NCBI RefSeq assembly: GCF_035984545.1
Contig: NZ_JAXCHP010000001.1
Location: 1,860,001-1,924,000, forward strand
Origin: Cryobacterium sp. GrIS_2_6
Lineage (GTDB): Bacteria > Actinomycetota > Actinomycetes > Actinomycetales > Microbacteriaceae
DNA: 64,000 nt
Reading direction: 5' to 3'
The notes under the pieces are model-generated. The model saw nothing but the letters and a program-made list of their open reading frames with translations. It did no database searches and was not told the DNA's origin. Shown here one piece after another: positions 39,909-58,473 of this stretch (the first letter of the stretch is position 1; each line of letters opens with the position of its first letter). Made by a program: the position numbers and the translations under genes.

Positions 39909-41150
39909 GTGATCAAATTGGATGATTGGGCAGAGATTCGCCACCTGCATTCGACGGGGAAGCATTCGAAGCGGGAGATAGCGCGGCTGGTCGGAGTGTC
40001 CCGGGGAACGGTGGATCGGGCGTTGGCCGTGGATCGGTCGCCGACGTATCAGCGCGAGCCGACGGGGTCGAGTTTCGACGCGTTCGCCGGCCAGGTGCGG
40101 GTGTTGCTCGCGGCGACGCCGACGATGCCGGCCGCGACCGCTGCTGAGCGGGTGGGCTGGTCGGGGTCTCCGTCGCTGTTCCGGGCCAAGATCGCCGAGC
40201 TCCGGCCGGAGTATGCGGTGCCTGATCCCGCGGATCGGCTGGTGCACCCGCCCGGGTTCCAGGTCCAGTGTGATCTCTGGTTCCCGCACGAAGACCTGCC
40301 GCTGGGCCATGACCAGGCTGCTGCGCCGCCGGTTCTGGTGATGACGTCGACGTTCTCCGGATTCATCCAGGCCCGCATGTTGCCGTCTCGGACGACGCCG
40401 GATCTGCTCGGCGGGATGTGGTCGTTACTGCAGGAGGCCGAGGCCGTTCCTGCCCGGCTGACCTGGGACAACGAGACCGGCATCGGGCGCGGGAAACTCA
40501 CCGATCCCGCCGCCGCGTTCGCCGGCACGCTTGGCACGCAGATCAAGCTGCTCAAGGCTCGCGATCCTGAGTCCAAGGGCATGGTCGAGCGGATGAATCG
40601 CTTCTTCCGCAGCCGCTTCATGTCCGGTCGTGCTTTCACCTCTCCCGACGACTTCAATCAGCAGCTGGCCGGGTGGCTACCCATCGCGAATAACCGTCTC
40701 TCCCGGTCACGCAGAGGCCGCCCACAGGACCTGGTCCGCATCGACCGGGCGGCGATGCGCGGCCTGCCGCCGATGGCGCCGGAGGTGATGTTCCGCAATA
40801 GCGTCCGGCTCCCACGGGATTACTACGTTCGCGCGTTCAGCAACGACTATTCCGTCGACCCGGCCATGATCGGCCGGGTTGTTGACGTGGCTGCGAGCCT
40901 CGAGCGTGTGACCGTCCACCACGACGGGGTCCTCATCGCCAACCACCGCCGGAAATGGGCCCGGCAACTGACCGTCACCGACCCGGCACATGTCCTCCGC
41001 GCGGCAGAGCTCCGCGCACAGTTCCAAGCCCAACGCGCGCGCCGGCCCGCGGTCACGGCCGTCGTCGAGATGGCCTCGCTGGCCCGCTACGACGAGCTCT
41101 TCAGCGTTGACATCGACGCCGCGCCGACCGTGTTGGCGGTCGCGTCATGA
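39909..41150 (+). CDS. istA: IS21 transposase IstA (inner element)
   Basis: 413-aa DDE transposase. N-terminal helix-turn-helix STGKHSKREIARLVGVSRGT, integrase core with QCDLWFPHEDLPLG (first Asp), TWDNETGIGRG (second Asp) and PESKGMVERMNRFFRSRF (Glu), then the C-terminal FSNDYSVDPAMIGRVVDV domain. GTG at 39909. Overlaps istB by 4 nt (ATGA). Acts with the IstB ATPase in target selection and cut-and-paste transposition. Appears functional. Confidence 0.93.
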   Translation: MIKLDDWAEIRHLHSTGKHSKREIARLVGVSRGTVDRALAVDRSPTYQREPTGSSFDAFAGQVRVLLAATPTMPAATAAERVGWSGSPSLFRAKIAELRPEYAVPDPADRLVHPPGFQVQCDLWFPHEDLPLGHDQAAAPPVLVMTSTFSGFIQARMLPSRTTPDLLGGMWSLLQEAEAVPARLTWDNETGIGRGKLTDPAAAFAGTLGTQIKLLKARDPESKGMVERMNRFFRSRFMSGRAFTSPDDFNQQLAGWLPIANNRLSRSRRGRPQDLVRIDRAAMRGLPPMAPEVMFRNSVRLPRDYYVRAFSNDYSVDPAMIGRVVDVAASLERVTVHHDGVLIANHRRKWARQLTVTDPAHVLRAAELRAQFQAQRARRPAVTAVVEMASLARYDELFSVDIDAAPTVLAVAS

Positions 41151-41911
41151 CCGGGTCGGAAGCGGCGTCGCAGATCGAGTACTACGCTCGCGCGTTGCGG
41201 GCGCCCCGGATCAGTGAAGCGTTCCGGCGCCTGGGCGACCAGGCCCGCGACGCGGGCTGGTCCCACGAGGAATACCTCGCCGCAGTGCTCTCCAAAGAGG
41301 TCTCCGAACGCGAGGCCTCGGGGGCGGCGCTCCGCATCAAGGCCGCCCGGTTCCCCGGTCACAAGACTCTCGAGGACTTCAACTTCGACCACCAGCCTTC
41401 CGCAGACCGGAACCTGATCGCGCACCTGGGCACGAGCGTGTTCCTCACCGAAGCGAAAAATGTCGTCCTCCTCGGACCTCCCGGGACCGGGAAGACACAC
41501 CTCGCCGTCGGGATCGGGATCAAGGCCGCCAAAGCCGGCCACCGGGTCCTCTTCGACACTGCGACGGGCTGGGTGACTCGACTCCAAGAAGCCCACTCAC
41601 GGGGCAAACTCGCCGCCGAACTCATCAGGCTGCGCCGTTACAGCCTGCTCATCGTTGACGAGGTCGGTTACATCCCGTTCGACCAGGACGCCGCGAATCT
41701 GTTCTTCCAGCTCGTGTCTTCCCGCTACGAACACGCCTCGCTCATCATGACGAGCAACCTGCCCTTCGCCCGCTGGGGCGACGTGTTCGGCGACCTCACC
41801 ATCGCCTCCGCGATGATCGACCGCATCGTTCACCACGCCGACGTGATCAGTCTCAAAGGCAACAGTTACCGGCTCAAGCAACACCAACCCGCCGCGACTA
41901 CGGCACACTAG
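41147..41911 (+). CDS. istB: IS21 helper ATPase IstB (inner element)
   Basis: 254-aa AAA+ ATPase: Walker A LLGPPGTGKTHLAVGIGI, Walker B LLIVDEVGYIPF, sensor region MTSNLPFARWGDVFGD and MIDRIVHHADVISLKGNSYR. ATG overlaps the istA stop. Full length. Similar in sequence to the istB remnant split by the RIT element at 44955-48710. Confidence 0.95.
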   Translation: MTGSEAASQIEYYARALRAPRISEAFRRLGDQARDAGWSHEEYLAAVLSKEVSEREASGAALRIKAARFPGHKTLEDFNFDHQPSADRNLIAHLGTSVFLTEAKNVVLLGPPGTGKTHLAVGIGIKAAKAGHRVLFDTATGWVTRLQEAHSRGKLAAELIRLRRYSLLIVDEVGYIPFDQDAANLFFQLVSSRYEHASLIMTSNLPFARWGDVFGDLTIASAMIDRIVHHADVISLKGNSYRLKQHQPAATTAH

Positions 41912-41976
41912 AACCACACGAGAGTGGCCCTGTTTTCAGTTGGCAGAAGTGGCCCTGTTTTCAGTCGGCGTTAACA

Positions 41977-42718
41977 GCGTGAGGCGGATCGAGTCGCCCG
42001 AGGTCTGGCAGACGTGGGCGTGGTGCAGGAGCCGGTCAACGGTCGCGGTCGCGAGGGTCTTGGGCATCAGTTCGTCGAAGCCCGCGGGATGCAGGTTCGA
42101 CGAGACCGCAATGGATCGTTTCTCGTAGGCGGCATCGACGAGTCGATAGAGGCCCTCGGCTGCGTCGGCCCCGACTTCGAGCAGCCCGATGTCATCGATC
42201 ACGATCAGATCCGAGCGCAGGATCCGGGCAACGACCCGGCCGACGGAGTCGTCGGCGCGGTGCGCGCGGACGAGAGCGCCGAGGTCCTCGAGGCGGAACC
42301 ACGCGACCCTCATGCCGGCCTCGACGACTTGCTGGCCGAGGGCCTCGAGGAAGAACGTCTTCCCAGTCCCGGAGGGCCCGCAAACGACGACGTTTTCCTT
42401 CCGGCCAATCCATTCCAACGTGCGGAGGGCCTGCTGCGTCGGGGCTGGGATCGAGGACGCTGACTCATCCCACGTGTCGAACGTTTTCCCCGTTGGGAAC
42501 CCCGCGGCCCGGCGCCTGGTGGCGAGCATTGACCGGGATCGTCCGTTGACTTCCTCAACGAACAGGGCCTTGATGATCTCGACGGGTTCCCAGCGTTGCG
42601 CCCGGGCGGTCGCGATCAGTTCCGGCGCCAGGGCGCGGGCGTAGGGCATCTTCAACTGCCGCATGAGCGCTTCCAGGTCCGCGGGCAGCGCGGGCGCGGC
42701 GGCCTGGGTGACGCTCAC
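41977..42718 (-). pseudogene. istB: istB of the outer element, split by the inner IS21
   Basis: From ATG 42718 the frame encodes Walker A VVCGPSGTGKTFFLEALGQQ, Walker B LIVIDDIGLLEVGADA and SSNLHPAGFDELMPKTLA up to GDSIRLT, where the inner element begins. The lost tail lies at 39798-39840 on the minus strand and reads QALAGKGVTKMN then stop. The current frame instead runs into the inner IR and ends at 41936 (TENRATSAN), changing only the last 13 residues, so some activity might remain. Confidence 0.9.
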
Positions 42719-44241
42719 GCGCTCTGCTCCAACTCGTCATCGGCGGCTTGCCCGATCGCAGCCCACCCGGCGGTGCCCTGCGCGAGCGAGCTGGTCTCGC
42801 CCGCCGTCCGTGCCGGCGGGCGCGCGGCGCCCGCGCTGAGGAGGGAGGCGAGGTCACCGGTCGCGAAACGACCATAAGTGGCCGCCTGGCCGAGGGCCTC
42901 GTCGACCGGGGCGGTGCCGCTGATCTTGGCCAGCGCGACGGCCTCAGCCATCTTCACGTTCATCCGCGCGGTCCCGGCCGCGGCCGCCTCGAGCAACCAC
43001 GCGTGCGCGCCGGCCCCGATGGCCAGGAACTCCGTCTCGGCCGCGCTGCGCGGGGTGATCGTGTAATCGCCCGGGATCTTCTCCCGGTGATCGGGGAAGT
43101 GCGCGTCATCAATCTTCGGGCTGCCGGGCCGGGCCCTTTGGTGCCGGGCGACCTCGACGGGCCCGTCACTGCCGACATGGACAATGACGACCTGCTCGTC
43201 AGAGCCGACGCCGTGGCTGCGGACGAAGACACGGGCGCCGAGCAAGTGCGCCGGCACCGAGTACTGGCCGTTCTCGAACGTGACCATCGGCGTGTTCTCC
43301 GGGACGGCGCGGGTCAGGCCCAGCGCGACGGTGTGCGCAGTGTCAGGGACCCGGTGCAACCGGGGCCGTTCCTCCTCGAGCATCACCGACGGCTTCCGCC
43401 TGGTGGCGCGGTGCTCTCGGGTGTTGACCAGGGCCATGAATGCTTCGCAGGCCGCTTCGACCTCGGCGAACGACGCGTAGTCGGGCCGGAGGTTGGTGTC
43501 TTTGGGCACGATGTCAGCCTTGGCGAGCTTCACCGAGGACTCCACCCCGCCCTTGGACGCGGGATCCGCGGGCTGGCACGTGAGCACGCTCACCCCGTAG
43601 TGGCGGGCGAAGTCCACCGTCTGCGGATTCCGCACCGGAACCCCGGCAACATGAGACACGGTGACCGTTTTCTCGTTATCGGTCAGGACGTAGGTCGGCG
43701 CGCCGCCAAGGAGCCGGAACGAGCGATCCAGCGCGGCGAACACGCTCGGCGCCGTGCGGTCCCGTAACGCGATCACAATCCGGAACCGCGACCACGCCAG
43801 CCACGCGACGAACAACACCGTTTTCTTCCCATCGATGACGGGGCCGTCGCCGAAGTCATACTGCAACCACATCCCCGGCTCCGTGATCCACGGCCGGTGC
43901 ACCCGCACCCGGCCGAGCCGGAACGCAGCACGGACCTGCGCGACCGCGCGCCGCGTCGACCGCTCCGAACCCGCGTAGCCCAAGCCGATCAGTTTCGCGT
44001 GGGCCCGGTCCGCACGGATCTTGCCCTGCGACGCCTCCACCCATTCCTCGATCTTCGGCAAGAACGGATCCGTGACCCGGCCCCGGTAAGCGGGCTCCGC
44101 GAGCGGCCGGCCCGCGTCGCGCGCCGCGACGTGCCGGGCGACAGTGTGATGCGAGCACCCGGTGAGCTCGGCAGCAGCACGCAACGACTCAGTCAGGTCG
44201 TAGGCAGCGAGTATTTCCATGATTTCTCCGTCAAACTTCAT
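42715..44241 (-). CDS. istA: IS21 transposase IstA (outer element)
   Basis: 508-aa transposase of the longer IS21 type: N-terminal HTH AAELTGCSHHTVARHVAARD, integrase core WLQYDFGDGPVIDGKK, YVLTDNEKTVT and DPASKGGVESSVKLAKADI, then a long C-terminal region. The last 4 nt overlap istB. Intact. ATG at 44241. Confidence 0.93.
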   Translation of the reverse strand: MKFDGEIMEILAAYDLTESLRAAAELTGCSHHTVARHVAARDAGRPLAEPAYRGRVTDPFLPKIEEWVEASQGKIRADRAHAKLIGLGYAGSERSTRRAVAQVRAAFRLGRVRVHRPWITEPGMWLQYDFGDGPVIDGKKTVLFVAWLAWSRFRIVIALRDRTAPSVFAALDRSFRLLGGAPTYVLTDNEKTVTVSHVAGVPVRNPQTVDFARHYGVSVLTCQPADPASKGGVESSVKLAKADIVPKDTNLRPDYASFAEVEAACEAFMALVNTREHRATRRKPSVMLEEERPRLHRVPDTAHTVALGLTRAVPENTPMVTFENGQYSVPAHLLGARVFVRSHGVGSDEQVVIVHVGSDGPVEVARHQRARPGSPKIDDAHFPDHREKIPGDYTITPRSAAETEFLAIGAGAHAWLLEAAAAGTARMNVKMAEAVALAKISGTAPVDEALGQAATYGRFATGDLASLLSAGAARPPARTAGETSSLAQGTAGWAAIGQAADDELEQSA

Positions 44242-44469
44242 TCAGGGCCCCTTCCTGGGCGACTTTGATGCGACTAGACACCGTCATCAAATCCCAGGAA
44301 GGGGCTCCCGCCACGTAACCGGGCGGGGGTTCAGAAATAGAAGTGGGCAGATCTCATGGCCACCAACGGGCCGTTCTACTGGCCATCAGTGGGCACTTCC
44401 GTGGCCGCCTATGGGCAGTTTGGCATGGCCGCTAACACCACACTGCGGACTCGTCTGAGAGATTCGCAC

Positions 44470-44830
44470 AGGCAGCGTCAGCCAGGGTCCGGCCGATGGG
44501 TTCCAAAATCGTTAGCGTCCCGTGCATCCAAAACGGAAGTCCAATTCCCGTCTTATCCAGGCAGACCACATCGACACGGGCCAAACCCTCCACCGCCCGC
44601 AGCTCCTGGACCAAGGCCTGGCTACAAGCGAGCTTCCCGGCCGCCAGGGCGAAGGCCACGCTCGTTCGATTCGGTGGGCGTCCGGTTCTGCAAGCCAGCT
44701 TCCGCACGCAGTCGAACGTCGTGGTCGCTGAGTCCCTCCTCGGCCAGGAACGGGTCATCGAGAGGCGGCAGCGCTTGCCGTGCTGCGAGCGACGACCGCT
44801 CGGTGCATGCGGCTCGACGTGCCATCCGAT
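44470..44830 (-). pseudogene. cation-translocating P-type ATPase remnant
   Basis: Two pieces in different frames. One (about 44660-44800) reads [28 protein letters not shown], like the N-terminal cytoplasmic domain of P-type ATPases. The next reads [20 protein letters not shown] and [20 protein letters not shown], i.e. the segment ending in the phosphorylation-site Asp. About 250 residues between them are missing, and the sequence after DKTG decays. Ion unknown. The outer IS21 element sits at its left side. Confidence 0.65.
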
Positions 44831-44891
44831 CACGTCTCCGATCAATCCGATTCATCAATCGCGTGAAGTTGAGTGCCTGTGGCCTCCTTCG

Positions 44892-45236
44892 TGTCGACGC
44901 TCGTTGAATAGTAGGCCGTTGGTGCTCTTCGAAAAGTAGGCCACCGTGGTTCATCTATTCTGCGGTGTTCTCGGGCCTGGCGGAAGGCAGTGTGGTGATT
45001 CCGCTGTCTTTGAGCCGGTAGCTGGCGCCCTTGAGCGAGATGACGTCGGCGTGGTGAACGATGCGGTCGATCATGGCCGCGGCCACGACCTGGTCGCCGA
45101 AGACGTCTCCCCAGCGGGCGAAGGGAAGGTTGCTCGTCAGGATCAGCGAGGCGTGTTCGTAGCGCGATGAGACGAGTTGGAAGAACAGGTTCGCGGCGTC
45201 TTGTTCGAAGGGGATGTAGCCGACCTCATCGACTTA
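44892..45236 (-). pseudogene. istB: third IS21 remnant: istB C-terminal part and one terminal end
   Basis: Minus-strand frame from 45236 to the stop at 44955 encodes DEVGYIPFEQDAANLFFQLV, SSRYEHASLILTSNLPFARW and MIDRIVHHADVISLKGASYR. It is broken exactly at the Walker B Asp by the RIT element; the preceding residues (FAIGSKFGLIIVD) are found beyond the RIT at 48657-48710. To the left, 44892 onward (TGTCGACGCTCG, with AGTAGGCC repeats at 44910 and 44937) looks like the IS21 terminus. Confidence 0.82.
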
Positions 45237-45255
45237 TGCAGACATCTGCATAAGT
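45232..45255. repeat. 24-bp palindrome at the left edge of the RIT element
   Basis: ACTTATGCAGA-CA-TCTGCATAAGT, 11-bp perfect arms around 2 nt. It abuts the 34-bp inverted repeat and shares its ACTTATGC start. It resembles a tyrosine-recombinase core site. No copy is present at the right edge, so the two ends are asymmetric. Confidence 0.75.
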
Positions 45256-45256
45256 T

Positions 45257-45290
45257 GACTTATGCCGACTCCGTGATTATGCCGATGCGG
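45257..45290 (+). repeat. RIT left inverted repeat
   Basis: 34 bp, begins GACTTATGCCGACTCCGTGA; pairs with 48623-48656 with one mismatch (A versus T at position 20). TTATGCC recurs twice inside each repeat, suggesting two recombinase contacts. Confidence 0.9.
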
Positions 45291-45424
45291 CCGCGGATAA
45301 TCGCCAATATCGTTGGTAGCAAAGGCATTTTCCGCTGGACCCCAGAGAAATTGTCGGCATAATTCCGGCGTTGTCGGAAGCTGTTCCCGAGGAGGCACTG
45401 TGCTTCCAGATGAGGAACGAACTG

Positions 45425-46633
45425 ATGCCAGGAACACGCAGAAAAGCTGGCGCGATGGCGCCCTACATTGCCGATATCGATGCGAAGCTGACCGCGGCCG
45501 GCTACACGCCGGGCACGAGGCTGGGCCTGTTGAAGATCGTCGGCGACGTCGGCTGCTGGCTGGAGACGGAACGGCTGACGGTCGCGGATTTTGACGAGTC
45601 GGCCGTCGCGTCTTTCCGCGCCGCGCGGGCCGGTGAGGGATTCACTCAGAAACTCTTTGGCCGCTGCTTCACTTTGATGTTCGAGGTGCTGCGGGAGGAC
45701 GGGGTACTTGCGCCGCCTCCCACTGCAGTGGTCTCTCCGCTGGAGGCTCTGCTGGCGGCCTATCGTCAGTGGTTGGTCCACGACAAAGACCTGGCGGCGA
45801 TGACGGTGCTCCGCTATGAGAACCTGGCGCGGCGATTCCTGCAGATCGGTCAGCCCGCAGGAGAGCTGCTTGACACCACGATGCTGTCCGGTGTCGAGAT
45901 CTCGGCATTCATCCTGGCCGAGAGTGGACGGGTGAGTCTCGGGTCCGCGCGCGGCCGGGTCGCGGAGATGCGCGCGTTGCTGCGTTACCTCTACCTCACG
46001 GACCGGACCCGCTGGAATCTGGCGGGATGTGTTCCCTCGGTTGCCGGTTGGCGCGACGCGCACCTGCCAGTGTCGCTGAGCGCCGGGCAGGTCGAGGCGA
46101 TGGTGGACAGCTGCGATCGCAGTACCAGGACCGGCCGCCGGGACCGGGACCGGGCGATCATGCTGCTGTTGGCCCGGCTGGGACTTCGGTGCATCGAGGT
46201 CGCCCGGCTGCGCCTGGACGACGTCGATTGGCGCGCCGGGGAGCTCACGGTCCGCGGCAAGGCCCGCCGCCGCGACCTGATGCCCCTACCCGTCGATGCG
46301 GGAGAAGCGTTGGTGGATTACCTCCACGAGGTCCGGCCGTCGTCGCCGCACCGGGAGGTGTTCATCACCGAACGCGCCCCACGCAAACCGATCACGGCGG
46401 ACCTTGTCGGTGACGTGGTGCGCCGGGCAGCTCGCCGGGCCAATTGCCCGGACGCGAAGGCACACGGGCTGCGTCACGCGCTGGCGACAGAGATGTTGGC
46501 GAAAGACACTCCCCTGCTGGACATCGGGCAGGTGCTGCGCCACCGGGATCTGGCCACCACTGCCATCTACGCGAAGGTCGACATCGACTCCCTACGCGGG
46601 ATCGCCCAAGACTGGCCGGGGCAGAGGTCATGA
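45425..46633 (+). CDS. RIT recombinase A (tyrosine recombinase)
   Basis: 402-aa tyrosine recombinase. Core-binding domain about residues 90-190; catalytic domain with Arg in LGLRCIEVARLR, HxxR in HGLRHALATEM, and the final HRDLATTAIYAKVD carrying His and nucleophile Tyr. The start ATG 45425 is picked because GAGGAA lies 7 nt before it; the frame is open from 45371. Overlaps recombinase B by 4 nt. The first and longest of the trio, as in described RITs. Confidence 0.9.
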   Translation: MPGTRRKAGAMAPYIADIDAKLTAAGYTPGTRLGLLKIVGDVGCWLETERLTVADFDESAVASFRAARAGEGFTQKLFGRCFTLMFEVLREDGVLAPPPTAVVSPLEALLAAYRQWLVHDKDLAAMTVLRYENLARRFLQIGQPAGELLDTTMLSGVEISAFILAESGRVSLGSARGRVAEMRALLRYLYLTDRTRWNLAGCVPSVAGWRDAHLPVSLSAGQVEAMVDSCDRSTRTGRRDRDRAIMLLLARLGLRCIEVARLRLDDVDWRAGELTVRGKARRRDLMPLPVDAGEALVDYLHEVRPSSPHREVFITERAPRKPITADLVGDVVRRAARRANCPDAKAHGLRHALATEMLAKDTPLLDIGQVLRHRDLATTAIYAKVDIDSLRGIAQDWPGQRS

Positions 46634-47562
46634 CGACACTCACAAAATCCTTGGACGACTACCTGCGGCTGCGACGGAATTTGGGCTATCAGTTGGCTGA
46701 CGCGGCGAGGCTTCTTCCCCGGTTCGTGGCGTGGATGGACGCCAACGAGCAACCGACGGTCACTATCGCCAACACCATCGCCTGGGTCGAGACCGTGTCG
46801 GCTGAACCGGGCAGCACTGTCTGGCCGCGCCGGATGACGGCCGTTCGCGGCTTCGCCCGCTACCTCTCCGGCATCGATTCCGCGACAGAAGTCCCACCAA
46901 TCGGGTTGTTCCCCTCCCGCCGGCGCTGGAGGACACCATTCATCTATTCCGCCGACGACATCACCGCCCTGATGGGCCATGCGCAGCACGACTTGGATTC
47001 GCGACTGCCTGCGGCGACGTATTCCACCCTGATCGGGCTGCTGGCGGTGACGGGGCTACGCATCGGGGAAGCGATCCGGCTGGATCGGGCCGACGTTGAT
47101 CTCGCTGCCGGCGTTCTCCTTGTTCGGCAGTCGAAGTTCATGAAGACCCGCAAGGTTCCCGTGCTCTCCAGCACCGTTGCTGCACTGCGCACATACGCCG
47201 CTCAGCGCGACACGCACCTCCCGGCGCCGTCCACCGCGAGTTTCTTCATGACGGTGACGGGAAAGCGGCTGCTCTATCCCGTTGTCCAAACTGTCTTCCA
47301 CAGCCTGTGTTCCGAGGCGGGGATCGGGGTCGGAGCGGCCCGCGGTCCCCGCCTGCACGACCTGCGTCACACTTTCGCGGTCACGACGTTGGTCAACTGG
47401 TATCGCAGCGGCGCCGACGTTCACGTGCGACTGCCTTACCTCTCTACCTATCTCGGGCACCGCGATCCACGGTTCACCTACTGGTATCTCTCCGCTGCGC
47501 CGGAACTCCTCGCCCTGGCCGCTGAACGCCTCGAGCCTAGGGATGGGCAGGTGCAGTCATGA
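46630..47562 (+). CDS. RIT recombinase B (tyrosine recombinase)
   Basis: 310-aa tyrosine recombinase: SAM-like N-terminal domain LDDYLRLRRNLGYQLADAAR, catalytic TGLRIGEAIRLDRADV, HDLRHTFAVTTLVNWYRSGA, and YLGHRDPRFTYWYLSAAPEL with the Tyr. ATG overlaps the stop of recombinase A. Intact. Confidence 0.93.
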   Translation: MTTLTKSLDDYLRLRRNLGYQLADAARLLPRFVAWMDANEQPTVTIANTIAWVETVSAEPGSTVWPRRMTAVRGFARYLSGIDSATEVPPIGLFPSRRRWRTPFIYSADDITALMGHAQHDLDSRLPAATYSTLIGLLAVTGLRIGEAIRLDRADVDLAAGVLLVRQSKFMKTRKVPVLSSTVAALRTYAAQRDTHLPAPSTASFFMTVTGKRLLYPVVQTVFHSLCSEAGIGVGAARGPRLHDLRHTFAVTTLVNWYRSGADVHVRLPYLSTYLGHRDPRFTYWYLSAAPELLALAAERLEPRDGQVQS

Positions 47563-48548
47563 CGGGGATCACGGCGACGGTCCAGATGTTCTTCAGCGAC
47601 CGTCTGGCCAAACAGCGCCAGGCCAGCGGCCACACCGTCGCCGCCTACCGCGACACGCTGCGGCTATTGTTCGCCTTCGTCCAGTCCACGACGGGGAAGC
47701 TGCCCTCGCACCTGGACTGGTCGGATCTCGACCAGGGCGTGATCAGCGCGTTCCTGGACCATCTGGAGACCACGCGGCACAACAGCGCCCGCACACGCAA
47801 TGCCCGCCTGGGCGCGCTGCGGTCGCTGTTCCGCTACGCCGCGCTGCAGCACCCCGAACACGCGGACGTCATCGCCCGGGTGCTGGCGATTCCGCCGAAG
47901 AGGTTCGACAAAGCTACGGTGTCCTACCTCACCGCCGAGGAGGTCGACGCTCTGTTGGCTGCCCCGGACCTCAACACCTGGGAGGGACGCCGCGACCACG
48001 CCTGGCTGATGCTCTGCATCCAGACCGGGTTACGGGTGTCGGAGCTGACCGGGTTGAACTGCGCCGACATCAGCTGCGGCACCGGCTCGAACGTCCGCTG
48101 CCACGGGAAGGGACGCAAAGACAGCGCCATCCCGCTCACCGCAGCAACCGAAGCGGCGGTCCGCTACTGGCTGCGCGAGAGGGCCGGCTTGCCGACCGAT
48201 CCGCTGTTCTGCACCCGCACTGGTCGACGCCTCACCCGCGATGCCATCGAACACAGATTGATCGCCCACCACGCCGCGGCCGCCCTGACCTGCGGCACAT
48301 TGCAGTCCAAGAAGCTCTCACCCCACACGTTGCGGCACACCACCGCGATGACGTTGCTGCACGCGGGAGTGGACACCACCGTCATTGCGCTCTGGCTGGG
48401 CCACGCCGACACCCGGTCCACGGATCCCTACATCCACGCCGACATGACGATCAAGGAACGCGCGCTGGCCAAAACAACCCCGGTGTCATCGCCGCCAGGT
48501 CGGTATCGCCCTGCCGATAGCCTCCTCGCGTTCCTGGAAGGGCTGTGA
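47559..48548 (+). CDS. RIT recombinase C (tyrosine recombinase, XerD-like)
   Basis: 329-aa tyrosine recombinase with TGLRVSELTGLNCADI, HGKGRKDSAIPLT (catalytic Lys region), HTLRHTTAMTLLHAG and LGHADTRSTDPYIHADMTIK. ATG overlaps the stop of recombinase B. Ends 75 bp before the right inverted repeat. Intact, so all three recombinases could be made from one transcript. Confidence 0.93.
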   Translation: MTGITATVQMFFSDRLAKQRQASGHTVAAYRDTLRLLFAFVQSTTGKLPSHLDWSDLDQGVISAFLDHLETTRHNSARTRNARLGALRSLFRYAALQHPEHADVIARVLAIPPKRFDKATVSYLTAEEVDALLAAPDLNTWEGRRDHAWLMLCIQTGLRVSELTGLNCADISCGTGSNVRCHGKGRKDSAIPLTAATEAAVRYWLRERAGLPTDPLFCTRTGRRLTRDAIEHRLIAHHAAAALTCGTLQSKKLSPHTLRHTTAMTLLHAGVDTTVIALWLGHADTRSTDPYIHADMTIKERALAKTTPVSSPPGRYRPADSLLAFLEGL

Positions 48549-48622
48549 TTATGCCGACCTCCACGCAGCCGACCGCAGGTCACAGGCCAGGAAGACACTC
48601 GGCTCAGGGGCCGCCGTCCTAC

Positions 48623-48656
48623 CCGCATCGGCATAAACACGGAGTCGGCATAAGTC
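48623..48656 (-). repeat. RIT right inverted repeat
   Basis: Reverse complement of the left repeat apart from one base. The sequence after it (CGACGATGATCAGG) resumes the istB target gene. Confidence 0.9.
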
Positions 48657-48710
48657 GACGATGATCAGGCCGAACTTACTGCCGATCGCGAACTGCGCCG
48701 TTATTTTGGG
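48657..48710 (-). pseudogene. istB: third IS21 remnant: istB piece right of the RIT
   Basis: Minus-strand codons ITAQFAIGSKFGLIIVD lead directly into the DEVGY of the fragment at 44892-45236 once the RIT is removed. Upstream of this the istB sequence is lost. 48711-49110 shows no supported gene or IS terminus. Confidence 0.7.
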
Positions 48711-49110
48711 AGATTTGGGGTTGCGGGGGACCTGAGCATCGTCAGAGGAGCCCCAAGCGGGACCGACCAGCTCATTCTGGTCACCACAGCAATCCAGCCC
48801 GTCGCCACCGATCGGACTCCCACTCCCCAGCGAAGGCCACGTGACTCACCGGACAGGTTGACCGTAAGATCACCGCCGTGCGCATTAAGCCGGGATCGCT
48901 CGTCTCAAAGTTACCGGGGTCGACGCTCGGCGTTAGGTTGCACGCCGGTCAAGGTGACGTCGAACCCATGGTCCGCCCCGCTTGCCTTGTGGTCCGCGGT
49001 CGGAAGCTCAACGAGATGTGGAATACCTGTCTGTGTTGCCTCGGCGAATTTGCAGGGCGGTCCTCTGCCGGTCGTGGGTCATCGGGGTGCTGAGAGGTGT
49101 TGGATGAGGC

Positions 49111-50046
49111 ATGGCGAAAATCGGTTCGGGCACTGTCTCGGGGTCGACGTTGGAGGATCGGAGTGAGTCATGGGTCCCTCGTGTCGGCGCGACCTCAGCG
49201 AGGCTCCTGCGGAGTAGATCCCGACAAATCTGGACGGGATGGCTGTCGCTCCTCGCTCTTCCAATTGGAGCCTTAGCCGCATGGGCAGCCTTCGTCGTCA
49301 GCGCTCCCGATGACCCTCCTGTTGTCGAAATGGGTGTCATCATGTTCGTCGCACTCTTGGGTGCCTGTGTCAGCGTGGGCCAGCTCGTTGCCGCTCGGAG
49401 AAACCGCTCTGCGGCGGTCACGAATGCCTTCCATTTCCTCCACCATCGGTATGGGTACATCAGCGTCTACGACCTCAGTCAAGCCATGGCTTCCATCCAG
49501 GGATTCGATGTGTGGTTGAGTCACCTCTCCCCTGCCGCTGGTGACGCTAGTGACGCTAGTGACGCTAGTGACGGTACGCCGGTGGCACGGACATGGGATG
49601 AGAATATTGTTCGGCCGATTGCATCTGGCCTGACTTCACGAGGAATCCGGCTCCTTGCACTGATTCCACTGCTCCCGGGAATCGGAACGTGCATGGCTCT
49701 AGGCATGCTCGGGGCGACGGACAACTTCCCCAATCGGAGCGTTTGGCTCACTAGTTGGTCTGTCGGCGGCTCACTCGTAGTTCTCGCATGTGTGGTATGC
49801 TCAGTGGCCGTTCTCCGGGATCGCGCAGAGCTACGCCGGGGCTACACCACGGTCTTGTCAAGCTCTCGTCCCTTTGATAACCAGACTGCCTTGGACCTCG
49901 TCGACTGGAAGACGGGGTACTTGCTTCGTCGTGCTGGCGAGCCCGGCCTGACGACGGCCATCTTCCGGAACCGGCTTCGCGAGATCCGCGCAGCTCACGC
50001 TGGCCAGTCGCCGCACCGCCTCCATGGTGCGGGACGAGAAACCTGA
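49111..50046 (+). CDS. four-helix membrane protein, unknown
   Basis: 311 aa. Two pairs of helices: WLSLLALPIGALAAWAAFVV and VIMFVALLGACVSVGQLVA near residues 45-95, then LLALIPLLPGIGTCMALGM and SVGGSLVVLACVVCSVAVL near 185-235. A linker carries three tandem Asp-Ala-Ser triplets from a 9-bp DNA repeat. After the last helix the motif AELRRGYTTVLSSS resembles REIRSGYTTLFNAY of the protein at 58474-59523. No family recognised. ATG 49111. Confidence 0.7.
   Translation: MAKIGSGTVSGSTLEDRSESWVPRVGATSARLLRSRSRQIWTGWLSLLALPIGALAAWAAFVVSAPDDPPVVEMGVIMFVALLGACVSVGQLVAARRNRSAAVTNAFHFLHHRYGYISVYDLSQAMASIQGFDVWLSHLSPAAGDASDASDASDGTPVARTWDENIVRPIASGLTSRGIRLLALIPLLPGIGTCMALGMLGATDNFPNRSVWLTSWSVGGSLVVLACVVCSVAVLRDRAELRRGYTTVLSSSRPFDNQTALDLVDWKTGYLLRRAGEPGLTTAIFRNRLREIRAAHAGQSPHRLHGAGRET
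49543..49569 (+). repeat. 9-bp tandem repeat in coding sequence
   Basis: GACGCTAGT three times in a row, followed by a partial GACGGT. In frame, it encodes three Asp-Ala-Ser units in a cytoplasmic or external loop. Copy-number change would keep the frame. Confidence 0.8.
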
Positions 50047-50230
50047 ACGGGTGGCCGCGGCTCAGCCTGATGCTCAGCTCCCGGCACTTCGCTTTAGTTA
50101 TCCTTCACCGACCATTCCTTCGTGGGCGTGCCAAAACGGGACCATGACCACAATGGTCACCATTGACACGACACTGAGCCTCCACGCGGAGGGCCGGAGC
50201 ATCGAGCTGCTGAAGTCATTCATCCTGTCG

Positions 50231-50935
50231 TCAGCCATAGAGGTGTTCTGGCGTTTGTGGGCATTGTTTGTAGATGCCCTGGCCGAGGGGTCCGGGCTCC
50301 ACGTGTGCGTAGGGCTGCCATGCGACAGTGGCTGGGCCCTGGCCGGTGTAGTTGCCCATGAAGGATTCGAGCGTGGGTGGCGTGTCGACCGGGATGTGGG
50401 CGGCTTCGAGGCACGGCATGAGCACCGTCGTCTGGTACTCGTACAGGTAGGTGAGCTGCGACTCGTTCAGCGGCACCGAGTTCGTCGGGTCACTGGGAAA
50501 ACGGGTGTTGCAGACGTAGTCCGCGATCGCATGGCGCAATTCGTCGCCGTTCGCCACATAGGTCTCGATGCCGCCCTCCGGACTGGCGACCGCGGGGACT
50601 CCTGCTGCGGTCAGGCAGGCCGCGATCACCGGCGGCAGTTCCTCCAGGCTGACGAATCGTTCCCGCGTTGCCGTCGGCACGGCCACGTCGGGATAGCTGG
50701 CGACGAATCCGTCGCGTAAGGCTGTTTGGGCCTGATCGGCCAGCTCCTGCCGTGCGGTTGCGGTCATCACCGGCGGGGTGGGCGCCGGGATGGACGTGGC
50801 CGACGGTGCGGCAAGTGGAGCGGCAAGTGGTGCGGCGGCGCATCCGCTCAGAAGCAGGATGGCCAGGGCAAGCGCGAGGCCCTTCCCGGCGGCTCGCAGC
50901 GGGCGTCGTGCCGGTGCGGTGTGTGGCGTAGTCAC
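50231..50935 (-). CDS. lipoprotein, third gene of the sigma operon
   Basis: 234-aa precursor with a lipoprotein signal: GKGLALALAILLLSGCAAAP, lipobox LLSGC near residue 32. After an Ala/Pro-rich spacer the mature domain is acidic with a few Cys (ACLTAAGVPAV, DYVCNTRFPSDP, MPCLEAAHIP, KQCPQTPEHLYG), perhaps two disulfides. Located 12 bp after the preceding gene. Function unknown; possibly an extracytoplasmic sensor for the sigma factor. Confidence 0.75.
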   Translation of the reverse strand: MTTPHTAPARRPLRAAGKGLALALAILLLSGCAAAPLAAPLAAPSATSIPAPTPPVMTATARQELADQAQTALRDGFVASYPDVAVPTATRERFVSLEELPPVIAACLTAAGVPAVASPEGGIETYVANGDELRHAIADYVCNTRFPSDPTNSVPLNESQLTYLYEYQTTVLMPCLEAAHIPVDTPPTLESFMGNYTGQGPATVAWQPYAHVEPGPLGQGIYKQCPQTPEHLYG

Positions 50936-50947
50936 GATGATCTCCTG

Positions 50948-51748
50948 TCAGAGATAGAGGCGGAAGGTGCCGAGGACAGTGGTTCCGTCGCTGCCGTAAA
51001 GCGGGAAGGGTTGGCCTGTGGGGTACCTGGCCCGGAAGGCGATGAGCCAGTCGAGCACGGCCGCACCTCTGAGGTCCCTCGGGATCGAGGTGAGTGTCGT
51101 TCGCACCACATACCCGTTCACCGGCTCGCCGTTATCGTCGCCGACTGCGTAGAGCAGGTCGGGCAAGTTCGTGGCTTCAGGTCCGGGCGTGCCGAATGTC
51201 TGGCCCCGGCCGTTGGTGGGAAAGTCGGCGGGGACGTGGTTGACGTAGCTGGCGTCCACCGCATACTTGCCACCAGGGGTCGCCGTGATCACGAGTTCCC
51301 TCGGTACCGCCGCGTCGACCAGCGGGAATTCGGCCGTCTGGGTCGTGAGGCCTGCGCCGGACCCATCCTGGTACTTCATCGTCATCTCCGCCCCTTGCAC
51401 TCCCGGGACGGTCAGGGTGAAGCTGCCCGCGGACAACGTGGTGAACGTGACTCGCAGGGCGTTGGCGGGGAAGTCGGGGACCGTGAGGGGGATGGTGGCC
51501 GGCCCGGAGCTCGGCTCACCGGTATTGAGCACACCGGTCGCGACCGCCGTGCCCGCCGCGGTACCCAAACCGAGCAGCGTGACGATCACGGCGATCGTGC
51601 CGCCGCGACCGAGACCGAATCGCCTGCGGGGCCGACGCGCGATGCGCGCGAGAACCTCAGTCTTCATCTCGGCGACGAACGCGTCGAGCTCTGCACCGAC
51701 GGGCGGTTCCTCCGGGTGCGCGCGACGGATGCCGGGTTCACTGGTCAT
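50948..51748 (-). CDS. single-pass membrane protein, putative anti-sigma factor
   Basis: 266 aa: cytoplasmic N-terminus of about 50 residues (EPPVGAELDAFVAEMKTEVL, RRPRRRFGLGRG), one helix TIAVIVTLLGLGTAAGTAVA, then a 190-residue external domain. It overlaps the sigma factor gene by 11 nt, the usual place for an anti-sigma factor, but no zinc-finger HxxxCxxC motif is visible, so the role is inferred from topology and position. Confidence 0.65.
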   Translation of the reverse strand: MTSEPGIRRAHPEEPPVGAELDAFVAEMKTEVLARIARRPRRRFGLGRGGTIAVIVTLLGLGTAAGTAVATGVLNTGEPSSGPATIPLTVPDFPANALRVTFTTLSAGSFTLTVPGVQGAEMTMKYQDGSGAGLTTQTAEFPLVDAAVPRELVITATPGGKYAVDASYVNHVPADFPTNGRGQTFGTPGPEATNLPDLLYAVGDDNGEPVNGYVVRTTLTSIPRDLRGAAVLDWLIAFRARYPTGQPFPLYGSDGTTVLGTFRLYL

Positions 51749-52286
51749 GACTGCTCACCGCCGTTCTGAGTCGGGTTCGTGCTCGCTCGAGTCGTTTGCT
51801 GACCGCTCCTACGCTTGCGCCTACGAGCGCGGCCGCCTCCGCATAGGAGCGGCCCTCGATCAGGCAGAGCTCACAGATACGCCGGTCGAGGTCATCGAGC
51901 GCCTCGATCTCCGCGAGTACCCACTTCAAGCGCCGGGCCGCGAGAGCATGGTCTTCGTTCGCCGCGACATCCGCCAGGCCCTCGGGGAGCGCCTCAGTGT
52001 GGTGGGTCGCTTTCTTGCGGCGCAGGTTCAGTGCGTGATTTCGGCAGGTGACGAGCAACCACGGCAGCGCAGAGGACTCGGCGATCGTCACCGACGCGGC
52101 CTTGGCCCACGCCGTCACGAAGGTGTCCTGCACGATCTCCTGAACGTCCATCCGATCGGAGACGAGTGCCCACGCGTACCGGGTGACCGCCCGCGCATGC
52201 CGGTCGAACAGCAGCCCGAACGCGCGGCGATCCCCCTTTACCGATTGGTGCAACAGCACCCGGTCGGACTCCCCCACAGTCTCCAT
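51738..52286 (-). CDS. ECF RNA polymerase sigma factor
   Basis: 182-aa ECF sigma-70 protein. Region 2: FGLLFDRHARAVTRYAWALV, MDVQEIVQDTFVTAWAKA; region 4: LAEIEALDDLDRRICELCLI, EGRSYAEAAALVGASVGAVS. No extra C-terminal domain. The ATG at 52286 is chosen over GTG 52292 because AAGGGGG ends 5 nt before it and the duplicated copy at 19.6 kb keeps only this ATG. First gene of the sigma / membrane protein / lipoprotein operon, likely autoregulated. Confidence 0.92.
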   Translation of the reverse strand: METVGESDRVLLHQSVKGDRRAFGLLFDRHARAVTRYAWALVSDRMDVQEIVQDTFVTAWAKAASVTIAESSALPWLLVTCRNHALNLRRKKATHHTEALPEGLADVAANEDHALAARRLKWVLAEIEALDDLDRRICELCLIEGRSYAEAAALVGASVGAVSKRLERARTRLRTAVSSHDQ

Positions 52287-52308
52287 AACCACCCCCTTGA
52301 CTATTGAA

Positions 52309-52333
52309 TGTCATCAGCGGCCGATTCATGACA
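52309..52333 (-). promoter_or_regulatory. dyad upstream of the sigma gene, candidate promoter
   Basis: TGTCAT and ATGACA separated by 13 nt, 23 bp upstream of the sigma start, with conserved flanks. The same dyad, in the same place, is kept in the duplicated fragment at 19696-19720 although spacer bases differ. TGTCA-type elements are common -35 boxes of ECF promoters, so this could be the autoregulated promoter or an operator. Confidence 0.45.
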
Positions 52334-52730
52334 AATTTGCCCTGATCGGGTCCAGATATTTCCAAGGTGCCCTAGACCGACCATGTGTCGCCACGTGCAC
52401 ATACTGGATTCCATCCGCACAGGGCGCCTGACGGAGACATCAGCATCCGAGTCTCGAGTACTGAGGGCACTTTGAATCGACACGCCCTGGACGTCTATGC
52501 AGAGCACTTCGCAAAACTTGAATCGATGCCAGTCGAAAGGCGGAACCGTACGGGCCTTTCCCGTGATGGCTCATAGACTCTGGACGCAGGACACCAAAAT
52601 CGGAGGCACTATGGCTACCTCGGTAGAACAGACACAAACGTGGAAGACGTGGGCGCCGCTGATTGGTGCCGGCTATGCCCGCGTCTTCGTGCCAGTTCGG
52701 AAGCGATTCACATAATCAATCCTAAGTTAT
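52334..52730. other. gap upstream of sigma gene
   Basis: The first 70 bp belong to the 233-bp duplicated block. The rest has short frames of unclear value, including one from ATG 52612 (ATSVEQTQTWKTWAPLIGAG) that stops at 52715 just before the membrane protein frame begins; it may be the lost N-terminus of that protein. Confidence 0.35.
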
Positions 52731-53156
52731 GTGTTCGGGTTGTTCTTGATGCCGTTCTTGGCCATGGGATTCCGCGACAGCCCGTTCGTGCCCATCGCGC
52801 TAATCACCATCGTCGTCCTATTCATGGGGACTACGGCGGTCGGATTTTACGGGTTGTACGCCTTCGGCCGGGATGTGCGAAAGGACCTCGCGACCGCAGG
52901 ATTCCCCACCGATCGAAGGGCGCCGATGCAATATCCGCGCCTCTTTGAGCAGTGGCTGGACAGAAATGTATTGACGTCTGAAACCGTCGTCAGTGTCGGA
53001 AATGCACTTTACGGCGAGCACGACGACACACACACATTCGCTCTGTCGACGAACAGGCCTGAGCCGGGTGGGGTTGGAAGTGATGGCAAAGCCCATTCCC
53101 CAGGCGCGTGCCCGATCCGATCTCGCCTGCTTGGGCATCACCCCGAAATCAAGTGA
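52731..53156 (+). CDS. small membrane protein, possibly truncated
   Basis: Two helices (FLMPFLAMGFRDSPFVPIAL; TIVVLFMGTTAVGFYGLYAF) then a soluble part RDVRKDLATAGFPTDRRAPM and RLFEQWLDRNVLTSETVVSV. The last 35 residues look random, so the gene may be cut near 53050. GTG at 52731 has no good ribosome site, and the frame before it holds a possible missing N-terminus. Function unknown. Confidence 0.4.
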   Translation: MFGLFLMPFLAMGFRDSPFVPIALITIVVLFMGTTAVGFYGLYAFGRDVRKDLATAGFPTDRRAPMQYPRLFEQWLDRNVLTSETVVSVGNALYGEHDDTHTFALSTNRPEPGGVGSDGKAHSPGACPIRSRLLGHHPEIK

Positions 53157-53844
53157 GTTGTCGAAGTCACGGGCTGCGACAAGGGTGAGCTGCTCACGGA
53201 ACGGTCAAGTTCCTGAGCGAGCCAATGCCCGCGCCTATCGAAAGCAACGGTTGAAATAAGTCGCGGTCGTTCGGTGCGGAAGATGAATTTATCCGCTTCC
53301 CGGTTCACGATTCGGTCGGAATCCGCGGTGCAGTAGTAGGTGACCTTCGATATCCCATCCTGAGTGAGGCGCCTCGAGTGATTCTCGTGGATCAGTTTGT
53401 ACCGCGACGCGGACTTCGCCGTCAGCTCGACTTCGACGAGCTCCACACTATCGCCATAGTTTGCAACGCCGTCGGCCTGGTGGTCGAGCATGCCGACTGG
53501 CCGTCGGTCGCGCTGCCAGGTGTAGCCGAGAGCGAGATATCGGGCCGATACCGTCGCGACGGCGACCTCGTGCCGCGTGGTTTGCCGGAACAGGTTTGGC
53601 GGCTGTCTCCCGACCGCGTCGTGCGTCGCCCAGACGATCGACGCACCGTGGAATGTCGGCCTTGCCCGGGCAACGAGACCGGCCTCGACCATCCGCATGA
53701 TCCAGTGTTGGGCCTTCCTCGTGCTGATCGGCTCCGCTGAACCCAGCATCGCGCCCAGTGCCACCGGATCGCATCGACCTCAGCCAGACGCACCGTGCCA
53801 GGCCAGTGGATCATCGCCAGATCACGCTCTGTCACCTGCACCAT
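53138..53844 (-). pseudogene. replication-relaxation (Replic_Relax) family protein, frameshifted
   Basis: From ATG 53844: VQVTERDLAMIHWPGTVRLA, then a one-base shift near 53765 (missing G in a CCGG run) to VALGAMLGSAEPISTRKAQH, WIMRMVEAGLVARARP, and later ALGYTWQRDRRPVGMLDH, VELVEVELTAKSASRYKLIH. The order (winged helix, then a PD-(D/E)XK-like ExELT core) matches plasmid and ICE-borne replication-relaxation proteins. If the shift is a sequencing error the protein is about 235 aa and complete. Its leader is interrupted by an IS21 element. Confidence 0.65.
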
Positions 53845-53964
53845 GCCGCTTGGCGAGTAGTCGTAGTTGGAACCTCTAGTCCACTCAGGTGGTACTGGTT
53901 TTCTGGCGAGGTGGTACTGGCAGCGGGTCGTTGACCGCCGCTGCCAGCACCGCCCCGGTGAGTC

Positions 53965-54732
53965 CTATTCCCAGTGTTCCTTGTTGGCGCGGGCGGTGTC
54001 GTCGCGTAGCTTGCGCATGTCGACGCGGCCCAGGTTGATGGTGCGGGAATGGTTCGCGAGCCGGTTCACGATCGAGTCCGCCGCCACTCGATCCGGGAGG
54101 GCCTCGACCCAGTAGGCCGGCCCGGACTGGGAGGCGATCACGGTCGGTAGGCGGTGCTCCCTGTTCGCCAGCACCGCGAACAGGTCGCTGGCGGCGTCGC
54201 TGTCGATGCCGACGGTGAGGAAGTCGTCGATGATGAGCAGGTCGACGTCGGAGAGCTCGTTGAGCAGTCGCTGGTGGGCGATGCCATCGCCTCGGCTGAT
54301 GATCAGGCGCCGGGCGAGGTCGTCCATCCGTGCGTAGGTGACGGTGTGCTCGTTCAGGCAGGCGGCGATCCCGATCGCGCAGGCGAGATAGCTCTTGCCG
54401 CCGCCGCTGGGCGAGATGATGAGCAGGTTCGTCGGATCGGCCCGCCAGGAATGAGCCGCGTATCGGCGCATCCGGACCGGGGTGATGCCACGGCCTTCGC
54501 GGTAGTCGAGCTCAGCGACCGACGCGTTCGGGATCGGGAACTTCGCCTGCCGGATGAGTTTCTCGATCCGGCTGTGTCGTCGCTGCTCGAGCGCGTAGTC
54601 GATCGCGGTCAGAAACAGCTGTTCCGGGGTGAGGGTGTCGTTGGTCTCGTCCCGGATGAGTTCCTCGAACCGGGTCGCGACGTGGGTGACCCTCAGGGCC
54701 CGGAATTTGTCGTAGTCGATGCTGGTGAACAT
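53965..54732 (-). CDS. istB: IS21 helper ATPase IstB
   Basis: 255-aa AAA+ ATPase: Walker A LLIISPSGGGKSYLACAIGI, Walker B DLLIIDDFLTVGIDSDAA, SQSGPAYWVEALPDRVAADS. ATG at 54732 overlaps the istA stop (ATGA). Intact and full length. Confidence 0.93.
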   Translation of the reverse strand: MFTSIDYDKFRALRVTHVATRFEELIRDETNDTLTPEQLFLTAIDYALEQRRHSRIEKLIRQAKFPIPNASVAELDYREGRGITPVRMRRYAAHSWRADPTNLLIISPSGGGKSYLACAIGIAACLNEHTVTYARMDDLARRLIISRGDGIAHQRLLNELSDVDLLIIDDFLTVGIDSDAASDLFAVLANREHRLPTVIASQSGPAYWVEALPDRVAADSIVNRLANHSRTINLGRVDMRKLRDDTARANKEHWE

Positions 54733-56327: not shown

Positions 56328-56499
56328 ACTGCCTCCGTCTCATCGAAGCAGCGACACCGTTGTGCCCCCGCTTCGACTAGAGAATCGGAAAAGGTCAGGC
56401 CGTACCAACTACCCAGAACGAGGGGTACCAACTACGTGGACTGAAGGTACCAACAAGGGCTACTCGCCACCGCTCCCCGTCCCTCACAACTTCAGCCGC

Positions 56500-56605
56500 T
56501 CACCCGTTTTTTCTTCATGTTTTTTCTCTTTGTTTTTTCTTTTTCTTTCATTCATATTTCTTTCATCTACCTCTGACTCTTTCCCTGTCCCACCACCTCC
56601 CCTTT
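56500..56605 (+). other. polypyrimidine tract
   Basis: Over roughly 100 bp the plus strand is almost only T and C (runs such as TTTTTTCTTC and CTTTTTCTTTC), far below local GC content and unlike coding DNA. It lies about 30 bp past the IS21 target duplication, in what was the leader of the replication-relaxation gene. Easily melted or triplex-forming DNA of this kind is seen at plasmid origins and transfer origins. Confidence 0.6.
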
Positions 56606-56687
56606 GCTTCCCAACCCCCCACACAATGCCGTTGAGTGTGGGGGGGGGTTGGGAAGCGAGCGCAGCGAGGGGGTGGCGGTGGGACAG
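56585..56687. repeat. large imperfect hairpin, candidate oriT or origin
   Basis: Outer arms CTGTCCCACC (56585-56594) and GGTGGGACAG (56678-56687); inner arms GCTTCCCAACCCCCCACAC (56606-56624) and its complement at 56636-56657 with three extra Gs; 11-nt loop. The whole structure spans 103 nt. A second repeat, TCGTTTACC / GGTAAACGA, follows at 56709-56745. No T run, so a simple terminator is less likely. Position next to a replication-relaxation gene suggests a cis site for replication or conjugation. Confidence 0.5.
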
Positions 56688-56845
56688 GAAAAGAGTGCCC
56701 TCGGGTAGTCGTTTACCTATTCGCTCTCGATGACGGGGTAAACGACCGGCCAGACGAATGCGCGCACGCCGCCGCGACATTCTGAAGGCCCGCTCGTCCT
56801 GACAACGCCGACACCGTGGCTGGCGCGAGTACTCCCGGCGAATGC

Positions 56846-57484: not shown

Positions 57485-57568
57485 GCCGTTCGTTTCCCTC
57501 CCGATTGCGACTCGTTGCCCGTCACGTCGGCCGGCCAAACTGAATTGTCAGCGGGCCAAGCCACGTCG

Positions 57569-57712
57569 TCAGCCAGTATGCGCCGTCGCAATGACCGTGA
57601 TCACAACCACCGCGATCGTGAACACGGCAACGATCAGCCAGCCCTGCCACGTTCGCGGACCCCATCCGCCACCCAGTTTCTTCGGACCAAACCACGGTTC
57701 ATGTTCCGCCAC
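57569..57712 (-). CDS. small membrane protein, 47 aa
   Basis: GTG 57712 with GAGGGGG 5 nt upstream. Sequence: charged start AEHEPWFGPKKLGGGWGPRT, then WQGWLIVAVFTIAVVVITVI as a single helix and a short tail. The WFGPK...GWGPRTWQGW pattern occurs in unnamed small proteins of Actinobacteria. Upstream of, and in the same direction as, the PH-like membrane protein gene. Confidence 0.6.
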   Translation of the reverse strand: MAEHEPWFGPKKLGGGWGPRTWQGWLIVAVFTIAVVVITVIATAHTG

Positions 57713-58401: not shown

Positions 58402-58473
58402 ATAGTTCTTTTGGTCAGGTATTCCATACCCTACGATCTGCACGCGGGCCGCTTCACCAGAGCCCCCAACACT

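Follow-up and report, generated by a model that had tools for sequence, protein, structure and literature searches.

A recombinase-in-trio element at the Walker B codons of an IS21 istB gene and the target motifs of its relatives

The element and the gene that it interrupts

The window analysed here, a stretch of 64,000 nucleotides from Cryobacterium sp. GrIS_2_6 (contig NZ_JAXCHP010000001.1, positions 1,860,001 to 1,924,000), contains a recombinase-in-trio (RIT) element lodged in an istB gene of the IS21 type. The element proper, termed E below, is complete and occupies 45260-48653 (3,394 bp, + strand), from the arm TTATGCCGAC to the arm GTCGGCATAA; it consists of three overlapping tyrosine-recombinase genes within a terminal inverted repeat. 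The genes all lie on the + strand, each neighbouring pair sharing a 4-nt overlap: ritA (45371-46633, 420 aa, PF00589 E 2.7e-25), ritB (46630-47562, 310 aa, E 3.3e-21) and ritC (47559-48548, 329 aa, E 9.9e-31). The catalytic R, HxxR, H and Y are visible by eye in all three translations. The terminal inverted repeat measures 37 nt and is 95% complementary between its left (45254-45290) and right (48623-48659) copies, the first 6 nt of the former constituting an inner core, GTTGAC (45254-45259), and the last 6 nt of the latter a right outer core, GTCGAC (48654-48659). A left outer core, ATCGAC (45228-45233), is made up of codons of the istB motif and is followed by a 20-bp palindrome, P (TTATGCAGACATCTGCATAA, 45234-45253), on the downstream side of istB, giving the order ATCGAC-P-GTTGAC-E-GTCGAC. 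RITs have been described as three overlapping tyrosine-recombinase genes of about 3.5 kb in all, with an inverted repeat and palindromic sequence at the ends (PMC3414803), a description that the window element matches in its gene arrangement, size and termini. Only three genes are recognised between the inverted repeats, fewer than the four core genes, including a Srap/GinD partner, of SE and GInt elements. The element is accordingly filed as a RIT, and the target rule developed below is treated as a new property of RITs.

To the left of the element, on the minus strand, lies the C-terminal part of istB (44955-45233), a 91-aa piece that runs from DEVGYIPFEQ at the broken Walker B motif to the stop codon and matches the IstB ATP-binding domain (PF01695 positions 160-235, E 6.5e-32). 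The right flank, read on the same strand, supplies GLIIV and the start of the Asp codon in a remnant of about 17 bp (48654-48670), which stops where similarity to another place in the genome starts: positions 48671-48865 are 78% similar to G000:C1:2202595-2202787. Because the DNA from 48671 onward resembles that other place, most of the 5' part of istB must be missing. The junction itself is more than a chance juxtaposition, as alignment to an intact istB on an Arthrobacter plasmid (L188) demonstrates; this gene has uninterrupted Walker B codons and retains 86% DNA identity to the left flank over 228 nt that extend as far as the core. The interrupted gene is not a complete istB directly behind its istA, and the istA located downstream of it (42715-44241, minus strand) is accompanied by an istB of its own. 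An earlier note on this DNA, made from the letters alone, had described a complete RIT that splits istB at its Walker B codons, and the domain matches, the inverted repeat and the two flanking readings bear this out. Its placement of the split between GLIIVD and DEVGYIPFEQ holds for the junction codons, with only about 17 bp of istB left on the GLIIVD side. The palindrome and the second core between istB and the left inverted repeat were absent from that note.

A search of the element's own genome returned no further copy (one copy in all), and a search of a viral contig collection for the RIT gave no match. A 3,314-bp contig of Cryobacterium algoritolerans (L041) is a RIT whose RitC is 99% identical to that of the window; it starts inside the RIT and ends 7 nt beyond the right arm, like contigs of repeated elements.

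Insertion sites of the window lineage

In a quick tree of 64 RitC rows, the window belongs to a 12-row clade with a support of 100. Nine of these twelve insertions lie at the same istB Walker B codon, two at an Asp codon of IS701 transposases and one in a cellular GDPD gene. The istB break falls at positions 157-160 of the 238 of PF01695 in eight loci (the window, L042, L110, L117, L161, L162, L163 and L180); that of L043 was placed by sequence comparison rather than by Pfam. L162 and L163 may represent one event, in which case the independent istB insertions number eight rather than nine. Across the entire tree, 25 changes of target are required, compared with a mean of 45.8 when the labels are shuffled, and a value as low was reached in 0 of 200 shuffles. 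Clustering of this kind indicates that target specificity passes down lineages, with occasional switches. One further IS701 insertion (L202) was found after the tree had been made and is not among its rows.

These results narrow the earlier proposal that istB is a preferred landing site of RITs. The check that it had suggested, inspection of RIT flanks for istB Walker B sequence, upholds the preference for the window lineage (9/12); RITs in general do not share it, other lineages using other conserved motifs, for the most part in enzymes of other mobile elements. Unrelated targets within the same subgroup, which had been named as the finding that would tell against it, do occur; in the 12-row clade they amount to the two IS701 and one GDPD insertions. 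The suggested reason, that the motif is present in many genome copies, is no more than possible: conservation of the codons would account for the choice equally well, and the window genome holds one RIT despite 20 istB copies with readable, uninterrupted Walker B codons. Nor can the probe TCGACGATGA stand for all such cores; (A/G)TCGA(C/T) is the form of most of them in the clade, but L117 has GTGGAT and L180 CTGGAC.

The explanation that we favour, and consider very probable, is that elements of this RIT family are site-specific integrators whose 6-bp attachment core coincides with codons of a motif that is conserved, and often catalytic, in the enzyme of another mobile element, with a two-core circle as the likely donor. 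For the window lineage the codons would be those for (I/V/L)-D in the Walker B motif of IstB. A more limited specificity is possible, if somewhat doubtful, in which only a short core such as RTCGAY is recognised, the surrounding motif plays no part, and the hits in mobile genes reflect their abundance and tolerance. The IS701 insertions of the clade at Asp codons with TCGAC (L159, L179) and the GDPD insertion at ATCGAC (L116) are in keeping with it, as is the core GTTCCA that L066 and L068 have in common in different IS256 genes. A 6-bp core, however, is expected by chance about every 4 kb per strand, at least 1000 times in a genome of 4.3 Mb, yet nine of the twelve clade members sit at an istB copy, so that flanking target sequence or target abundance must add something. 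Recognition of a short core thus refines site-specific integration at conserved motifs more than it contradicts it.

Two pairs of loci are informative on whether one codon is hit repeatedly. The window and L042 have ritC genes that are 91% alike in DNA, whereas the C-terminal parts of their istB targets are 47% alike in protein over 75 aa and give no blastn match, and the two loci are opposite in orientation. L066 and L068 have ritC genes 98% alike in IS256 genes whose C-terminal parts are 73% alike in DNA and 72.5% in protein. That elements 91-98% alike occupy one and the same codon in targets of much lower similarity implies that insertions recur. Pairwise DNA identities were obtained with a gap-permissive aligner that returns 70-80% for unrelated genes (24 pairs), so that low DNA values mean only that two genes are not detectably alike; for the targets of these two key pairs, protein and blastn values were used instead. 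The bearing of near-identical RITs in clearly different targets on mobility is indirect, such pairs being suggestive of movement at most. It is very unlikely that IS21, and likewise each of the other families, was entered by a RIT once long ago and that this insertion was then copied or inherited together with its host element, the shared site marking one event. Two pairs may each have arisen in that way: L162/L163 (ritC 97% and target 94% alike) and L169/L170, which occupy the same istA codon in unlike surroundings with both genes 99% alike, their inner cores reading GGCCTC and AGTTTC. The divergence of the istB and IS256 targets just described argues against it elsewhere, as does the orientation of the element relative to its target, which is mixed within istB, IS256, the YADD group of reverse transcriptases and ArdC.

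Targets and break positions across the family

The survey assembled 124 RIT loci: 59 from named-species genomes, 19 and 16 from further genomes, 29 from plasmids, and the window. The 59 and the 19 comprise every match that the respective searches gave outside the window's own genome. The plasmid loci were chosen by hand, from lists of best and of spread matches, among 356 matching plasmid records, and L211 and L212 were taken from 29 rows of RIT places in 14 genomes, some of them already in the sample. Removal of L109 (the same as L042), L119 (as L067), L211 (as L098), L170 (a near-copy of L169) and L087 left 119 distinct loci. L087 carries the same RIT as L086 in another bin (100% over 3,543 nt), with a right-flank gene of the same kind and a left flank that differs.

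A target could be named for 82 of the 119 loci, and by hand tally 71 of these are genes for transposases, IstB, recombinases or group II intron reverse transcriptases. IS256 transposases (18) and group II intron reverse transcriptases (15, of which 13 are cut at YADD and two at FFD) are the most frequent, followed by istB (9), IS701 (7), ISL3 (4), integrase cores of the IS3/IS481 type (4), tyrosine recombinases (4), IS66 (3), IS1380 (3), and single cases of IS1634, istA, a serine recombinase and the ritC of another RIT. In addition, there are five ArdC genes and one each for an AAA ATPase, a DUF222/HNH protein and a DUF932 protein, classes which we take to be often found on mobile DNA. By eye, a RIT in L074 (3479-7089) apparently lies near the start of another RIT's ritC.

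Most target names derive from Pfam or NCBIfam, flank reading frames having been picked on codon G+C and motif searches. Others were assigned by tblastn or DNA comparison with verified pieces (L043, L047, L054, L065, L070, L071, L075, L083, L088, L090, L122, L172, L173, L202 and L218) or by a readable motif (L049, L074, L077 and L085), that of L077 solely by the reading ...VRYAD. Pfam yielded nothing useful for pieces of L097 (two), L061, L159 (N-terminal part), L059 (right), L171, L043 and L077; NCBIfam named L097, L171 and L159 where Pfam had not. The RVT_1 matches of L203 (E 0.038) and L206 (E 0.064) are weak, and L206 also matches the L076 and L092 pieces. Of 68 automatic inverted-repeat predictions, 19 were put aside by hand, some of those loci being resolved later by other means.

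Each target family tends to be broken at one or two conserved motifs. IS256 genes are broken at PF00872 positions 253-256 of 379 in ten loci with pieces cut at the junction (L045, L058, L060, L063, L064, L066, L068, L072, L118 and L120), the IS256 genes hit having Pfam E-values of 9e-3 to 4e-77. Group II intron reverse transcriptases are broken at YA-DD or, in two loci, at FFD; tyrosine recombinases are broken at HDLRH, and ArdC at HEL-GH, corresponding in four loci to PF18818 positions 51-57. The assignment of catalytic residues within these motifs is presumptive. In a control covering elements with at least 1.5 kb of flank, later loci being outside it, motif sites predicted from other loci lay within 30 nt of 29 of 64 real RIT ends (18 of 37 elements), compared with 5 of 840 mock positions drawn from the same flanks. 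The real rate is lowered by single-member families, which cannot score, and raised by two of the 29 hits, the ends of L170, for which the near-copy L169 supplied the prediction. Near-random insertion followed by loss of hits in essential or useful genes, with survivors in dispensable mobile genes, is very unlikely: RIT regions are indeed rich in mobile genes (31 of 141 annotated non-RIT neighbours at 25 plasmid loci with gene tables are, by hand count, transposases, recombinases, IstB or reverse transcriptases, some of them the targets themselves), but such survivorship would scatter breaks along genes, whereas breaks gather on one or two motifs per family, the control favours real ends over mock positions, and outer cores match each other.

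The loci gathered after the pattern had been noticed (L179-L187 and L202-L222) provided a target for five of nine plasmid loci (none for L181, L184, L185 or L186) and for 13 of 16 genome loci (none for L211, L220 or L221); L218 is a second copy of the L219 RIT. Of their 18 targets, 16 are transposase, IstB, recombinase or reverse-transcriptase genes and two are mobile-associated (ArdC and DUF932). Thirteen are cut at a motif known from the first loci and five at a new one (L182, L183, L204, L207 and L212). Extended to RITs as a whole, the favoured explanation becomes that of hyperparasites homing on active sites, and we regard it in this general form as likely: each lineage would insert at conserved, mostly catalytic codons of one mobile-enzyme family, break the enzyme, and change host family by changing its 6-bp core. 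The motifs concerned would be the IstB Walker B, the motifs of DDE transposases, the YADD of group II intron reverse transcriptases, the HxxR of tyrosine recombinases and the HExxH of ArdC.

Cores, palindrome and a possible route of insertion

These elements share the layout core-E-(reverse-complement core)-20-bp palindrome-core. In 32 of the 33 elements that were cut out with a P of 20 bp, the inner core measures 6 bp, the exception, L049, having too little flank. Within an element the two outer cores differ on average by 0.38 of 6 bases, compared with 3.94 between elements (n=32), and the inner core is on average 0.84 bases away from the left outer core when the latter is reverse-complemented and 3.91 when it is not. 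An ordinary target-site duplication was considered and set aside, a recombination core being the better reading of the repeated 5-6 bp. E occurs in both orientations relative to the target, and within each of 10 target classes P keeps to one side of the gene, in all 41 elements scored, an outcome that a coin flip produced in 0 of 20,000 trials. A sequence like GGACTAACCCGCTCCG (in L185, GGACGAACCCGCTCCG) directly adjoins the RIT end in L168, L183, L184 and L185; with IS91-type transposase genes annotated in the stretches analysed for L184 and L185, IS91-like ends may abut RIT ends.

Sequence comparison shows the layout, the return of separate insertion events to one codon, the constant side of P and the clustering of targets on the RitC tree. 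The circle, the order of steps, the carry-over of inner cores, the roles of the three recombinases and continuing movement are what we infer from them. The donor would be circular, with a core at each of the two junctions of E and P and the two cores oppositely oriented (E, reverse-complement core, P, core). Recombination of one circle core with a matching target core would then yield target-CORE-E-rcCORE-P-CORE-target, where rcCORE denotes the reverse-complement core. Because such a circle reads alike from both strands, P would come to lie on a fixed side of the target whichever way E is oriented. Inner cores that depart from the outer ones, as in the window or between L169 and L170, suggest that the inner core is exchangeable and perhaps carried from the last site, as with the 6-bp spacers of SEs (PMC10214605).

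Several observations weigh against this reading, either in its mechanism or in its breadth. The circle, excision and movement are themselves deduced from DNA comparisons, and in 17 of 32 elements, that of the window included, the inner core and one or both outer cores are not exact reverse complements but differ by 1-3 bases, so that a simple circle model is incomplete. The table of P sides was scored by hand, grew from 31 to 41 elements, and excludes single-member classes and loci with the same target half on both flanks. At these latter loci (L071, L093, L172, L202 and L218) the halves are inverted (N/N or C/C) and further rearrangement is needed, perhaps recombination between two copies that each carried a RIT or a DNA inversion at the cores; in the four of a scored class, the half touching P is the predicted one (L071 N-P-E-P-N, L093 C-E-C, L202 N-E-N, L218 C-P-E-P-C). 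The target is present on one flank only in L043, L077 and L168, and two motifs rather than one are hit in reverse transcriptases, IS701, IS66, ISL3, the integrase core and IS1380. Cellular genes make up three of the named targets (GDPD in L116, a solute-binding protein in L086 and SRAP in L167), so that a matching core can be enough even in a gene that is not mobile. The sample was built by similarity to the window RitC, targets were assigned by hand, and 37 of the 119 loci lack a named target owing to short contig ends, worn ends or the lack of a recognisable gene (L041, L044, L046, L048, L053, L057, L059, L061, L067, L069, L073, L078-L082, L089, L091, L094, L095, L098, L099, L112-L115, L123, L126, L127, L160, L175, L181, L184-L186, L220 and L221).

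Relation to known elements

Inteins, homing introns and similar elements occupy the codons that a gene family conserves best, a choice that leaves them a site from one species to the next, and they splice out and so spare the gene. A RIT, by contrast, has no known splicing and breaks its target gene. If site-specific integration at conserved motifs is correct, a tyrosine-recombinase element aims, as inteins and homing introns do, at codons that are unable to drift, at the cost of other mobile elements, and RITs may act as a brake on insertion sequences and group II introns. With the core, the motif and the side of the palindrome fixed, the target choice of RITs, their movement and their need for three recombinases each become directly testable, and the different RIT cores offer a ready-made series in which to study how such recombinases switch sites.

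Transposons of the Tn554 type possess a tnpA, tnpB and tnpC set and use one chromosomal site in radC. The RIT lineages described here differ in using different sites, mostly in mobile genes. The two have in common tyrosine recombinases and site-specific insertion (PMC10214605) and, judging from the title of a reference, insertion free of target duplication. SE and GInt elements likewise combine several tyrosine recombinases or related proteins with target specificity and, in their case, circular forms; SEs also have 6-bp spacers at their ends, and one SE is reported to have inserted into insJ of an IS3 element (PMC10214605, PMC5385486). They differ in their four core genes and in their median sizes of 15.7 kb and 34.9 kb (PMC10214605), compared with three genes and no cargo between the repeats here. 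A palindrome bordered by a reverse-complement core, a feature of the present elements, is not described for SEs or GInts in the portions of PMC10214605 and PMC5385486 available to us.

Previously reported RIT insertions include IS66 tnpA and, in two genomes, radC (PMC2864759), as well as a Tn6049-like transposase gene (PMC3414803), and a double CB domain in RitA and an extra C-terminal helix in RitC have been given as features of RIT subgroups (PMC8138268). The need for three enzymes was called hard to understand in 2012 (PMC3414803), and a table from 2023 lists target specificity, empty site and movement of RITs as not tested (PMC10214605). Neither a target rule nor a 6-bp core or palindrome-side rule, as found here, appears in the accessible parts of PMC3414803 and PMC2864759. 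The full-text literature searched, in the parts available, contains no statement that RITs target conserved motifs of mobile genes, most subscription journals lying outside that search, including Nielsen 2017 and the dedicated Ricker 2013, which may say more.

Surroundings of the window element

The RIT lies within a part of the window, 41000-60500, that is rich in mobile genes. Besides the interrupted gene, this stretch holds istB genes at about 41186-41887 (+), 41981-42664 (minus strand; the partner of the istA mentioned above) and 54010-54705 (minus strand), and a tyrosine recombinase gene at about 59780-60406 (+).

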